This document shows, piece after piece, positions 2,914 to 46,203 of a stretch of 50,046 nt of DNA (position 1 is the stretch's first letter; the number at the start of each line of letters is the position of its first letter). The DNA is taken from IMG/VR virus record IMGVR_UViG_3300047994_000044, positions 1 to 50,046 of that record, one strand, 5' to 3'. The notes beneath the pieces were generated by a model. That model did not search any database, was not told the DNA's origin, and worked only from the letters and a program-made list of their open reading frames with translations. The position numbers were made by a program, and so were the translations under genes. Source of the stretch: a virus.

Positions 2914-3528
2914 ATGACATCCAAGTTCATCCCAGAACTAAGCACCACATCCAAAGATACAACTCCATATGTCAACAACAAAGAAATGTTGGCAGCTATC
3001 ACTCAATATCGTAAAGAGTGTCGAGCAGCTAAGAGAGCCAAGTTACCTAAACCAAAGATTCCTGATTCTATTGGCAAACAAATTCAATTGATTGCTATTA
3101 ATCTTTCACATAAGCCTAATTTTAGTCAATACACTTTCAAAGCAGACATGATTGGTGATGCTATTGAAAATTGTATTATGTACTTTGATAACTTTGATCC
3201 TAAGAAGTCCAAGTATCCATTTGCTTACTTTTCTAAAATTACTTTTTATGCGTTTGTTCGTAGAATCCAACGTGAAAAGAAGCATCTCTACATCAAATAC
3301 AAAGCTACACAGCAAGCCGGTGTCCTTCACGATGCCGAATACAGTGATGAAGACAATCCAGGTGAACAGTTTGAGCTATACGAGAACATCACTGACTTCA
3401 TTGGTAAGTATGAAGAATCTCAGGAACGTGCTAAAGCCAAGAAGGCGCTTCCTAAAAAGAAAAAGGGATTGGAGATAGCCATGGAAGATGAAGTATCTCT
3501 GGAATCTATTGAAGAAACCAATGAGTGA
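2914..3528 (+). CDS. 55: gp55-like late sigma factor
   Basis: The 204-aa protein resembles T4 gp55 (about 185 aa), a minimal sigma factor that directs host RNA polymerase to late promoters together with gp33 and the sliding clamp. The sigma region 2 signature is visible around residues 70-130: MIGDAIENCIMYFDNFDP followed by FAYFSKITFYAFVRRIQREK. The tail is acidic and lysine-rich. The leader carries AAAGGTC as Shine-Dalgarno, flanked by GACC and GGTC that could pair. TAAATA boxes elsewhere in the window are candidate targets. Confidence 0.85.
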   Translation: MTSKFIPELSTTSKDTTPYVNNKEMLAAITQYRKECRAAKRAKLPKPKIPDSIGKQIQLIAINLSHKPNFSQYTFKADMIGDAIENCIMYFDNFDPKKSKYPFAYFSKITFYAFVRRIQREKKHLYIKYKATQQAGVLHDAEYSDEDNPGEQFELYENITDFIGKYEESQERAKAKKALPKKKKGLEIAMEDEVSLESIEETNE

Positions 3529-14800: not shown

Positions 14801-15745
14801 ATGATTGGTCAAGGTGAAATACTTTGGTCTGAGATCTATCGACCGCACAAAGTCTCCGAATGCATCATCCCCGATGCGTTAAAAGCAACATTTCAATCAT
14901 ATGTTGATAAGAAAGAGATTCCTAATCTTTTGCTAACTGGTTCTACTGGAACAGGTAAGACTTCTGTTGCCAAAGCATTGTGCGATGAAATAGGTGCAGA
15001 TTATATCTTCATCAACGGCTCGCTTGAGAACGGTGTTGATATTCTTCGCACAAGAATTCAAGGCTTTGGTTCATCTGTATCATTCACAGGTGGCCGCAAA
15101 GTCATTATCGTGGATGAGGCAGACAATTTGACGAGCGCCGCTCAGTTAGCTTTTCGTGGTGTTATTGAAGAACTAAGTGTCAACTGTTCTTTCATTTTTA
15201 CATGCAACTACAAGAATCGAATCATTGAAGCCATCCATAGTCGATGTGCTACTATCGAGTTTAAATTACAAGCTAAAGAAAAGGTTTTGATGGCACAAGC
15301 ATTTAATGCTCGTGTTGGAGAAATTTTATCCAAAGAGAAAATTGAGTTTGAGAAACCCGTTGTCGGACAACTCATTAAAAAGTATTTTCCAGACTATCGC
15401 AAAATTCTCAACGAACTTCAGAAGTTTGCATCTAAGAACGGTGCAATCACAGAAGAGATTTTGTCGCAAGTTTCAGATGCCAAGATCGATGAAATGATTG
15501 GGTATTTAAAGACTCAGAATTTTGCCGGTCTTCGTAAGTGGGTAGCTACGAATTCTGATAATGATTCACTTGTCGTGATCAGGGCACTCTACGACAAAAT
15601 GGAAGAGATATTTAAACCAAAATCACTTCCTGTTCTGGTTGTCCTTACCGGTAGGTATCTTTTTCAGGCCACATCTTGTTTAGATCAAGAAATCAATCTT
15701 GCTGCTTACTTGACAGAGGTGATGGTTGAATGTGAGGTAAAATAA
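14801..15745 (+). CDS. 44: gp44-like clamp loader large subunit
   Basis: A 314-aa AAA+ ATPase (T4 gp44 about 319 aa) with Walker A GSTGTGKTS near residues 47-55, Walker B VIIVDEADNL near 101-110, sensor 1 FTCNYKNR and the SRC motif HSRC near 146. Together with gp62 it opens and loads the gp45 clamp. The next gene begins inside its stop codon (TAATG). The start context ATTATGATT resembles the region bound by RegA in T4 gene 44. Confidence 0.93.
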   Translation: MIGQGEILWSEIYRPHKVSECIIPDALKATFQSYVDKKEIPNLLLTGSTGTGKTSVAKALCDEIGADYIFINGSLENGVDILRTRIQGFGSSVSFTGGRKVIIVDEADNLTSAAQLAFRGVIEELSVNCSFIFTCNYKNRIIEAIHSRCATIEFKLQAKEKVLMAQAFNARVGEILSKEKIEFEKPVVGQLIKKYFPDYRKILNELQKFASKNGAITEEILSQVSDAKIDEMIGYLKTQNFAGLRKWVATNSDNDSLVVIRALYDKMEEIFKPKSLPVLVVLTGRYLFQATSCLDQEINLAAYLTEVMVECEVK

Positions 15746-16128
15746 TGTCTTTGGCAAAATTATTAGGAATAAAAGAAAATCAAGAAACAAAATTTTGTCC
15801 AGAATGTAAAAGGAGTTTGTCCGTAGACTTATTCAGAAAAAGACAAGAAGGTAGGAAACAGGCTAGGGTCTACACATACTGTAGAGAATGTGAAAAGAAA
15901 CTTACTAACGTTTTATTTGATTTGAAAAAAGATATTCGTCCTAAACCTGAAGCTTGTGAATGCTGTTACAAAATTACCGATGCTTTGGTTGTCGATCACG
16001 ATCACGACACAAATAAAGTCAGAGGTTGGATTTGCACTCCCTGCAATGTCGGCATCTCAAGGTTGGGTGACAATCTACCAGGTGTTGAACTGGCTAGAGA
16101 ATATTTAAAGAGAACTCAAAATGGCTGA
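15745..16128 (+). CDS. Endonuclease VII-family HNH nuclease
   Basis: A 127-aa protein with an N-terminal CxxC/CxxC zinc ribbon (residues 17-20 and about 49-52), then the endonuclease VII core: CECC, DHDHD near 84-88, and CTPCN. T4 gp49 of this family resolves branched DNA. The gene sits between the clamp-loader genes 44 and 62, which are adjacent in T4, and it overlaps both. A free-standing homing endonuclease is therefore as likely as a true gp49. All zinc and HNH residues are intact. Confidence 0.85.
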   Translation: MSLAKLLGIKENQETKFCPECKRSLSVDLFRKRQEGRKQARVYTYCRECEKKLTNVLFDLKKDIRPKPEACECCYKITDALVVDHDHDTNKVRGWICTPCNVGISRLGDNLPGVELAREYLKRTQNG

Positions 16129-18363: not shown

Positions 18364-18900
18364 ATGTTCCAATGGTTGCTGAACAAGCTAGAAGCTAATG
18401 GCCGAAAACTGGTGATCTACGACAGAGACGGAGTAGATCCGTATCTTACGCGCTATTACCTTGCCTATCCTGATGGCGACGCTAGGAAAGCGACTGGGGT
18501 AAGGGAAGACATCCCTTACAATACATTCCTCCATCAGTTCATACGATCAGATGATGATGTGTTTCATACACATCCTTGGGATTGGTATTTCACCGTCATT
18601 TTGAAAGGTGGTTACTGGGCGCATTCCCCATGGGGAACAAAATGGATGGGTCCAGGTACGGTTAAGTATCAAAATTGTCGAACTATGCGTCAGTGGTACA
18701 ACAAAGATCTTGGAAAGAGTTTCCTACTTCCAGCAAATTTACATTGGGTTGAGATACCAAAGCCTGGTAAAACTTGGACACTTTTTACACGCGGAAAGAC
18801 AATCAACAAAGGCTTTTGGGGTTTCTGGCCAGATAGAACAACAGCAGACATCGTTAGGCACGATATCTACTTAGAAAAACAAAGGATTAAAAATGGTTAA
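18364..18900 (+). CDS. Cupin-like phage protein
   Basis: The 178-aa protein contains DDVFHTHPWDWYFTVILKGG near residues 61-80, where the HxH and later Glu match the metal-binding motif of the cupin barrel. A second barrel strand region LPANLHWVEIP follows near 120. Cupins include oxygenases, isomerases and sugar-binding proteins, and the substrate here is unknown. It overlaps the next gene by 8 bp. Confidence 0.65.
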   Translation: MFQWLLNKLEANGRKLVIYDRDGVDPYLTRYYLAYPDGDARKATGVREDIPYNTFLHQFIRSDDDVFHTHPWDWYFTVILKGGYWAHSPWGTKWMGPGTVKYQNCRTMRQWYNKDLGKSFLLPANLHWVEIPKPGKTWTLFTRGKTINKGFWGFWPDRTTADIVRHDIYLEKQRIKNG

Positions 18901-19735
18901 TGGTTGGAGTGGAAATAACCATTCAAAAAGAAAAATACAAATTCTTACATGTGGATCTTGCGGTGATGAGTTTGAAACTAAACATCCTGTAAAATCTAAA
19001 GATGGTATATGGAGATGTAAGAATTGTAACAAAAGAAGTAATGAGTTTCATACTAAATTAACTGATGCAGAATACAATGAAATGTTTCTGAATCAGGGTG
19101 GGGTGTGTGCTATTTGTAAAAAACCTGAATTTAGAAAGATGCGTGGATCTGATGCAGTTAGAAAACTGTGCGTAGATCACGATCACGAGACTGGAAAGGT
19201 TCGAGCATTATTATGTGGTCATTGTAATACTGCTATAGGTATGTTGAAAGAAAACGTGTCAACACTAATTAATGCTAAAGTTTATTTACAAAAACATAGT
19301 GATAAAATTCCTTCTTGGGATCAATATTTTATGGATTTAGCTCTTTTGGCTTCCACTCGCTCAAAAGATCCTTCAACAAAAGTTGGTGCTATTTTGGTTA
19401 AAAATAAGAGAATAGTGTCTACAGGATACAATGGTATGCCTTTTATGGTGGACGACACCATTCCTGAAAGATGGGAAAGACCCGATAAGTATAATTTTGT
19501 AATTCATGCTGAGGCTAACGCGATAGCTTTTGCGAACGGTGTTAGGGATTTGGATGTAGTTTACACGACACTGTTTCCTTGTACCAGTTGTGCTTGTTTA
19601 TTGATACAAACTGGGGTTAAAGAGATTGTGTATGACACAAAAATCAATCCTAGATTTGAAAGAGAATTTGCAATTTCAAAACAAATGTTTGACGAATCTA
19701 ATGTTAAAGTTAGACCATTCGATAGAAGTTGTTAA
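18893..19735 (+). CDS. Endonuclease VII-like domain fused to dCMP deaminase
   Basis: A 280-aa protein of two complete domains. Residues 1-135: a zinc ribbon (CGSCG, CKNC) and an endonuclease VII HNH core with CAIC, DHDHE near 95-99 and CGHCN. Residues about 142-280: a dCMP deaminase that begins WDQYFMDLALLASTRSKDPS, with zinc motifs HAEANAI near 204 and PCTSC near 228. The deaminase makes dUMP for thymidylate synthesis and fits the ThyX in this window. No stop or frameshift separates the domains. The DNA looks more AT-rich than its neighbours, which suggests recent arrival of the first domain. Confidence 0.88.
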   Translation: MVNGWSGNNHSKRKIQILTCGSCGDEFETKHPVKSKDGIWRCKNCNKRSNEFHTKLTDAEYNEMFLNQGGVCAICKKPEFRKMRGSDAVRKLCVDHDHETGKVRALLCGHCNTAIGMLKENVSTLINAKVYLQKHSDKIPSWDQYFMDLALLASTRSKDPSTKVGAILVKNKRIVSTGYNGMPFMVDDTIPERWERPDKYNFVIHAEANAIAFANGVRDLDVVYTTLFPCTSCACLLIQTGVKEIVYDTKINPRFEREFAISKQMFDESNVKVRPFDRSC

Positions 19736-26451: not shown

Positions 26452-26482
26452 TGCTATAATGTTCCTTCTTATTAGAAGGAAC
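26452..26482 (+). promoter_or_regulatory. Extended -10 promoter fused to a hairpin that hides the uvsX Shine-Dalgarno
   Basis: TGcTATAAT (26452-26460) is a consensus extended -10. GTTCCTTCT (26461-26469), loop TATT, AGAAGGAAC (26474-26482) make a perfect 9-bp hairpin holding the AAGGA of uvsX, whose ATG is at 26487. The predicted start near 26467 lies in the 5' arm. Confidence 0.75.
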
Positions 26483-34582: not shown

Positions 34583-34607
34583 CTAAATAACTCCTAGATT
34601 AGGAGTT
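34583..34607 (+). promoter_or_regulatory. TAAATA late-type box fused to a hairpin that hides the Shine-Dalgarno
   Basis: CTAAATA (34583-34589) is followed by AACTCCTA (34589-34596), loop GAT and TAGGAGTT (34600-34607). The AGGAG of the membrane gene at 34611 is inside the 3' arm. A late start about 7 nt after the box would fall at 34596 and remove the 5' arm. Confidence 0.7.
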
Positions 34608-34610
34608 GTC

Positions 34611-34895
34611 ATGTTTCGTTTATCCAAGCGTGTTATTAAAGATATTGTTACCGAAAAAGACGGTATATCATTCGATCCTGCCCGCATTTTGTGGGTTATG
34701 GGCACGCTCCTATTCTTTGGGCTAGTCATTTACACCACAATTTTATTACCATCATCATTCAACATGATCAATTTTGGTATGGCATTTGGTGGCATTCTTG
34801 CCGGTGGTGGCGCATCTATTAAAATTAAAGAAACGACAGAGCAACCATTATCAAATGGTGGTGATCAGGTCACTTCTGGTACGGAGAAGACATGA
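34611..34895 (+). CDS. Two-span membrane protein, candidate holin
   Basis: 94 aa with two hydrophobic segments, about residues 27-47 (ILWVMGTLLFFGLVIYTTIL) and 52-70 (MINFGMAFGGILAGGG), and a hydrophilic C-terminal tail. Size, topology and place between an endolysin and spanins make a class II-like holin likely. It has its own late-type box with a leader hairpin, which would delay expression as expected for lysis timing. Confidence 0.6.
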   Translation: MFRLSKRVIKDIVTEKDGISFDPARILWVMGTLLFFGLVIYTTILLPSSFNMINFGMAFGGILAGGGASIKIKETTEQPLSNGGDQVTSGTEKT

Positions 34896-45683: not shown

Positions 45684-45760
45684 GGGTTGTTCGTCTACGT
45701 TGGCTAAGACCGTAGTCTCCAAAACTATCAAAGGCGGATCGTCACCGTCACAACCTGCCA
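45684..45760 (+). tRNA. tRNA-Trp (CCA)
   Basis: Acceptor GGGTTGT/ACAACCT, G, CCA encoded. Anticodon arm GTAGT-CTCCAAA-ACTAT gives CCA. The T-arm GGCGG-ATCGTCA-CCGTC has a non-standard loop instead of TTCGAAT. Confidence 0.8.
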
Positions 45761-45794
45761 CTAAATACTCCAAACAACAAAATAAGGTTTGGAG
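45761..45794 (+). promoter_or_regulatory. TAAATA late-type box fused to a hairpin that hides the HNH ribosome site
   Basis: CTAAATA (45761-45767) is followed by CTCCAAAC (45768-45775) pairing with GTTTGGAG (45787-45794), which contains the GGAG of the ORF at 45797. A late start near 45774 would remove the 5' arm. The layout is like the regulation known for the T4 homing endonuclease I-TevI. Confidence 0.65.
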
Positions 45795-45796
45795 TC

Positions 45797-46143
45797 ATGT
45801 CGATAAGAAATATAAAAAAAGTCAGACAATCTCGTAGAGATTGGTACGCTAAGAACCAACAACATGCAATCTCTAAAATCAAAGAAAGACGATCTATATT
45901 GAAAGAATGGATTCAAGAATTCAAAAAAATTTAATGTGCGCTAAATGTGGACAAAATCATCCGGCAACATTGCAATTTCATCATTCTGATCCATCACAAA
46001 AAGATATTGAAATTAGCCAAATGCATAAGCAAGGCTATTCAATTCATAGGATGAAAGAAGAAATCGCGAAGTGCGTTGTGCTGCGTGCCAATTGTCACGC
46101 TATCGTACACTACGAAGAAAGAAATAATCTCGCTGTGGTATAG
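45797..46143 (+). pseudogene. HNH endonuclease split by a frameshift
   Basis: Frame one (45797-45934) encodes the N-terminal basic helix (RRDWYAKNQQHAISKIKERR). A run of seven A (45923-45929) precedes its stop. The -1 frame continues as NLMCAKCGQNHPATLQFHH...KCVVLRANCHAIVHYEE, an HNH/zinc core, to 46143. The second zinc pair reads RxxC where CxxC is expected (one base change). Frameshift plus lost zinc ligand indicate decay, though slippage on A7 could restore the frame. It sits inside the tRNA island, and its 3' end overlaps tRNA-Arg. Confidence 0.8.
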
Positions 46144-46203
46144 AGGATGTGCCTTGAGCTTCTACCTCAATGAACGTCGGTTCGAATCCGGCCAGCGGGT
46201 CCA
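46129..46203 (+). tRNA. tRNA-Arg (TCT)
   Basis: Acceptor CTCGCTG/CAGCGGG, T, CCA encoded. Anticodon arm TTGAG-CTTCTAC-CTCAA gives TCT. T-arm GTCGG-TTCGAAT-CCGGC. Its first 15 bases are also the last codons of the HNH reading frame. Confidence 0.85.

Follow-up and report, generated by a model that had tools for sequence, protein, structure and literature searches.

Control of a gene by a late promoter and a hairpin over its RBS has been described for the homing endonuclease genes I-TevI, I-TevII, I-TevIII, segB, and mobE of Aeromonas phage Aeh1 (PMC2988022), and the T4 late genes e and soc also carry RBS hairpins that are part of the same control (PMC3014915). For I-TevI, which is encoded in the td intron of T4, the RBS is buried in the hairpin on the early and middle transcripts and becomes free on RNA from the late promoter. 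In addition, the late promoter of I-TevI overlaps an operator similar to the homing site, to which the enzyme binds (PMC2988022). The mobE gene encodes a free-standing HNH enzyme of a T4-like phage, a hairpin covers its RBS, and its late promoter is placed such that the late RNA cannot form the hairpin (PMC2988022). The segB gene is a free-standing homing endonuclease gene among the tRNA genes of T4, with a similar arrangement of hairpin and late promoter.

The locus analyzed here resembles all three systems in its predicted arrangement, but it also differs from each of them. I-TevI is of the GIY-YIG type, resides in a group I intron, and has a monomeric site, whereas the present gene encodes an HNH enzyme, lies between tRNA genes, and is preceded by an inverted repeat. 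SegB also belongs to the GIY-YIG family, and it targets a tRNA intergenic region. The mobE gene resides in an nrdA gene and not in a tRNA island; this comparison was made by description, and mobE lies outside the annotated Aeh1 stretch that was examined. A scan of Aeh1 for units of box, perfect stem, and RBS, intended as a positive control, yielded none, but the scan demands a perfect stem and was not validated on mobE.

The locus is part of a virus record of 50,046 bases (the whole stretch that was analyzed, below called the window) from a T4-like phage. Its DNA polymerase is about 42% identical to cyanophage gp43, and it encodes gp55, UvsX, the clamp loader gp44, and RegA (PHROG). A near-identity DNA search of the window against phages gave no match. 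The basis of the analysis is one metagenomic record and relatives that are largely fragments, with predicted start codons and late starts. The right end of the window contains an island of 30 tRNA genes (ARAGORN), in which the HNH gene is situated between tRNA-Trp (CCA; 45684–45760, plus strand) and tRNA-Arg (46129–46203). The Rfam tRNA model missed this tRNA-Trp at its gathering score, and therefore, the tRNA may be divergent or decaying; its T loop, ATCGTCA, is unusual. The HNH gene consists of an N-terminal part of 45 amino acids (45797–45934, plus strand; ORF list and alignment with homologues) and a catalytic part in the -1 frame (45907–46143, plus strand; alignments and PHROG HNH endonuclease, 6.8e-23). 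Pfam did not yield an HNH match at 0.01, whereas the PHROGs did. Elsewhere in the window, two endonuclease VII-like domains are encoded (15745–16128 and 18893–19735), one of them fused to a deaminase. Additional mobile endonucleases may thus be present beside gp44 and within the deaminase gene.

The HNH stop codon, TAG, falls inside the 5′-end of the tRNA-Arg gene (46129–46143). The same overlap, often 9 nt into the tRNA gene, recurs among unrelated phages as well as on cyanobacterial contigs (L002, L012 [KIL2], L016 [crAss001], L110 [HCTV-16], L093, L234, L238, and L241).

The original prediction had proposed that CTAAATA precedes a hairpin whose 3′ arm contains the GGAG of the HNH ORF, and sequence and folding showed this arrangement to be present as described. 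CTAAATA (45761–45767, plus strand) directly abuts the CCA end of the tRNA-Trp gene (45758–45760). It is followed by a perfect 9-bp hairpin (45767–45795) with the arms ACTCCAAAC (45767–45775) and GTTTGGAGT (45787–45795) and a loop of 11 nt, and the sequence of the 5′ arm is also that of the anticodon loop in the adjacent tRNA-Trp, CTCCAAA. The GGAG (45791–45794) lies within the 3′ arm, and the ATG follows at 45797. The predicted free energy is -9.3 kcal/mol over 43 nt, and none of 200 shuffled sequences folded equally well. The gap between the GGAG and the ATG is only 2 nt, which is unusually short, compared to 7 nt in the homologue L086 (see below) and a distance of the RBS of about 8 nt in the I-Tev genes. 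Although this distance is a supporting and not a defining feature of the control type, it weakens the claim that the HNH gene is efficiently translated in the window. Exact DNA searches with the hairpin retrieved palindromes in other contexts, one match inside an apparent coding sequence, and a match on an unrelated contig, L102.

CTAAATA is the late motif of Aeh1, where it starts at position -12 (PMC1524935). In the window, the heptamer alone occurs at chance frequency (7 copies, 8.6 expected), and all seven copies are on the plus strand. In a relative of 176,865 bases (G008), in which the genes were called by a simple purpose-written script, it was the top-enriched 7-mer upstream of genes (14 versus 0.65) with a strand bias of 26 to 3, and the genes behind it include those for tail sheath, head scaffold, and baseplate wedge proteins. 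The window encodes a gp55-type late sigma factor (2914–3528, plus strand; phrog_234, E 2e-56, and tblastn to cyanophage gp55), the expected reader of the motif. The enrichment in the relative, the presence of gp55, and the published Aeh1 motif together indicate that CTAAATA is probably the late promoter of this lineage, occupying positions -12 to -6. With the Aeh1 spacing, 45773 would be the first base of the late transcript; it falls within the 5′ arm, where the original prediction had placed the start, and this geometry fits the I-TevI type. Another sequence, TATAAATA, was rejected as the box of the phage, with one exact copy in the window and one per strand in the relative.

We consider it likely that the element is a late-expression switch of the HNH gene of the I-TevI/mobE/segB type. 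Read-through transcripts of the tRNA island would fold the 9-bp hairpin and hide the GGAG, for which folding predicts a probability of being unpaired of 0.001 and an RBS opening cost of 10.0–10.6 kcal/mol. Late in infection, a polymerase programmed by gp55 would initiate at CTAAATA and generate an RNA from about 45773 that lacks most of the 5′ arm, so that the GGAG would be largely free. The opening cost on the predicted late RNA is 2.3 kcal/mol. With longer 3′ context, the GGAG of the late RNA is mostly still paired, with other bases (probability unpaired 0.15), and therefore, only a partial release is predicted. In this scheme, the late start site, its timing, and the repression itself are inferred.

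The window contains further cases of this arrangement. The full unit, defined as the box, an adjacent stem, an RBS in the 3′ arm, and an ORF of at least 40 amino acids, was found twice, compared to 0.017 per shuffled window. The second unit was detected by scanning and folding at 34583–34609 (plus strand) and consists of CTAAATA and AACTCCTA-GAT-TAGGAGTT, with TAGGAG in the 3′ arm, directly in front of the ORF 34611–34895. For this ORF, the RBS opening cost decreases from about 10 kcal/mol on the read-through RNA to 0.6 kcal/mol on the late RNA. The ORF has no family match and is presumed to be a member of the lysis cassette from its position and a hydrophobic segment, as judged by eye; it would parallel T4 e, an ordinary late gene with the same logic. 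The third case is uvsX (UvsX identified by PHROG), where a 9-bp hairpin was predicted over the RBS (26452–26482, plus strand) and a sigma70-type extended -10 motif, TGCTATAAT, stands at the place of CTAAATA. Initiation at the predicted site would lower the opening cost from about 10–12 to 1.7 kcal/mol. Perfect stems of at least 8 bp that overlap the RBS precede 3 of 56 genes of the window (0.31 expected), and stems of at least 9 bp precede 2 genes (0.05 expected). The cases of the HNH gene, the presumed lysis ORF, and uvsX suggest that this phage repeatedly positions a promoter such that transcription begins within one arm of the hairpin over the RBS. As far as the sequence can tell, the control is thus not special to mobile genes, as the presumed lysis ORF and uvsX share it.

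The original prediction had also proposed to examine whether the box and the hairpin travel with intact HNH homologues, and the full unit was found in one case only. The homologue L086 is encoded on a 15-kb contig (L101/L086), the genes of which resemble gp44 of the window (by comparison) as well as gp62 and RegA (judged by eye). In this contig, tRNA-Trp is followed by GATAAATA, by CTCCAAAT-N11-ATTTGGAG, and by an intact HNH gene of 114 amino acids with its RBS in the hairpin. The protein shares 54% identity with the window protein after joining of its two frames, and the stem differs from that of the window at one pair (C-G in the window, T-A in L086). The RBS opening cost decreases from about 10 kcal/mol on the read-through RNA to 3.1 kcal/mol on the late RNA. 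In contrast, the near relatives L104, L105, and L107 contain HNH homologues without the inverted repeat.

The hairpin of the window turned out to be one instance of a broader inverted repeat, which has the form TCCAAA-N11-13-TTT(A)GGA and lies upstream of tRNA-Trp-linked HNH genes. It was found at seven loci (the window, L086, L011, L106, L108, L123, and L124), all of which are linked to tRNA-Trp, whereas 0.05 would be expected over 232 homologues; as the pattern was chosen after the first members had been seen and was then widened, this expectation is a guide and not a clean P value. Five perfect divergent loci have TCCAAA and TTTGGA without any variation, offset by 18–19 bases, whereas the spacers are unrelated and compensating changes occur at the flanking pairs; the other two loci have the variant TTTAGGA. 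In L123 and L124, an exact copy of TATAAATA is situated between the arms. L011, L106, and L108 have no clear RBS within the arm, and the AUG of L011 is apparently hidden in a second hairpin. Outside the window and L086, the RBS is not clearly located within the repeat, and most of the seven genes do not clearly use it to hide the RBS. In the Pseudomonas phage KIL2 (L012, 860–900), which is not known to be T4-like, the RBS of an HNH gene in a tRNA array, AGAGGTG in front of a GTG start codon, lies in the 3′ arm of a different hairpin, CACCTCTA-AGA-TAGAGGTG.

The arms of the repeat match the anticodon-loop sequence of tRNA-Trp (TCCAAA). Of the HNH homologues with scores of at least 150, 7 of 8 are situated beside tRNA-Trp, compared to 4 of 209 with scores below 120; as tRNA-linked members served as seeds of the homologue search, tRNA linkage is overestimated in the set as a whole. 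L108 carries a tRNA-Trp remnant, a 5′ half upstream of the HNH gene, the anticodon loop of which forms the 5′ arm, and an intact tRNA-Trp is present downstream. Weaker 5′-half copies, likewise ending at the anticodon loop, were found for tRNA-Gly (L230) and tRNA-Pro (L238). In L108 (490–530), L230, and L238, the half copies correspond to the adjacent tRNA on the opposite side of the HNH gene, as if the gene had been inserted together with a restored tRNA. The archaeal and bacterial homologues (L199–L278, genome contigs) are also linked to tRNA genes by subgroup. In many haloarchaea, the HNH gene is upstream of tRNA-Gln(CTG), in cyanobacteria it is at tRNA-Pro(TGG), and in Pacearchaeota, a homologue is located between tRNA-Arg(CCT) and tRNA-Gly(TCC). 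The group may home into tRNA anticodon loops, with the repeat representing a target-like site.

These results raise the question of whether the repeat is primarily a DNA site, i.e., an operator or homing-site mimic with the tRNA-Trp anticodon-loop sequence as half-site that is bound by the HNH protein, so that the RBS in the 3′ arm would be a by-product in the window and in L086. The invariance of both half-sites at a nearly constant offset at the five divergent loci and of the pattern at all seven when the TTTAGGA variant is included, the linkage to tRNA-Trp, the remnant in L108, and the I-TevI operator, which likewise overlaps a late promoter, all speak for this explanation. On the other hand, 18–19 bases are not a whole number of helical turns, the pairing with compensating changes beyond the six invariant bases is also explained by an RNA hairpin, and three near relatives lack the repeat. 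We therefore regard a primary DNA site as a possibility to be taken seriously, but somewhat doubtful. As an additional role it is probable, by inference only, because the repeat is conserved also where the RBS is not clearly hidden; the combination of a target-like site and a late promoter has a precedent in I-TevI, the operator of which resembles its homing site. A chance inverted repeat, a tRNA-processing signal, or a terminator without a role in HNH expression could be suspected from the position directly after the CCA end of a tRNA and from the palindromes with the same arms in different contexts. This is very improbable, as the stem is not followed by a T run, the RBS is in the arm, and the unit recurs in front of another gene and in L086, far above the statistical expectation; terminator and processing signal were thus rejected as the main reading.

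The late-expression switch is favored by the decrease in RBS opening cost from about 10 to 0.6–3.1 kcal/mol for four genes with the predicted starts. The recurrence of the full unit in a single homologue, the lack of CTAAATA enrichment in the window, the short gap between GGAG and ATG, the pairing of the GGAG that persists on the late RNA in longer 3′ context, and the state of the window gene count against it. The HNH frame is broken at a run of seven A (45923–45929), and the stop codon TAA overlaps an ATG at 45934 (TAATG). In addition, a near-invariant zinc cysteine is replaced by arginine (codon 46084–46086), so that the conserved KCxxLC reads KCVVLR; L086 and the further homologues in the comparison retain the zinc ligands and an unbroken frame. 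The frameshift, the altered motif, and the short distance between RBS and ATG suggest that the gene has probably been inactivated, and recently. The element could therefore be the relic of a formerly working switch, now in front of a dead gene and devoid of a present function, an explanation to which we give almost an even chance. Yet the box and the hairpin are still perfect, and the break may stem from an error in sequencing or assembly, or slippage or re-initiation at TAATG could bypass it.

The original interpretation is supported in part. That this regulation is shared among families of mobile endonucleases had already been published, for the HNH gene mobE of Aeh1 and for the GIY-YIG gene segB of T4, and the control also occurs at non-mobile genes, which include e and soc of T4. 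As mobE is an HNH gene and segB is found among tRNA genes, the present locus is not a new kind by its protein family or its location, and HNH genes within tRNA arrays are known. In a limited search of open papers, no description was found of the anticodon-loop-sequence repeat or of the pairing of HNH subgroups with tRNAs. Tentatively, and with a clear leaning toward doubt, a small HNH family can be envisaged that is specialized by subgroup for the anticodon loops of particular tRNA genes and in which the tRNA-Trp subgroup has, beside its own start, two inverted copies of the loop sequence that serve as an autorepression operator.

Taken together, the results add an uncultured lineage of T4-like phages, which apparently uses CTAAATA as its late promoter, to those with a T4-style late control of homing endonucleases, and they place the same type of switch, in one genome, also on a presumed lysis ORF and, in a sigma70 form, on uvsX. 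If the HNH proteins are specialized by subgroup, a single element of 25–27 bp would serve as target mimic, operator, and late translation switch in the T4-like members, and the operator bases would also form the RNA hairpin and the RBS. If the anticodon-loop repeat is the binding site of the HNH protein, the choice of tRNA genes by small HNH enzymes could be tested directly, and so could the way in which such genes spread through the tRNA islands of phages.
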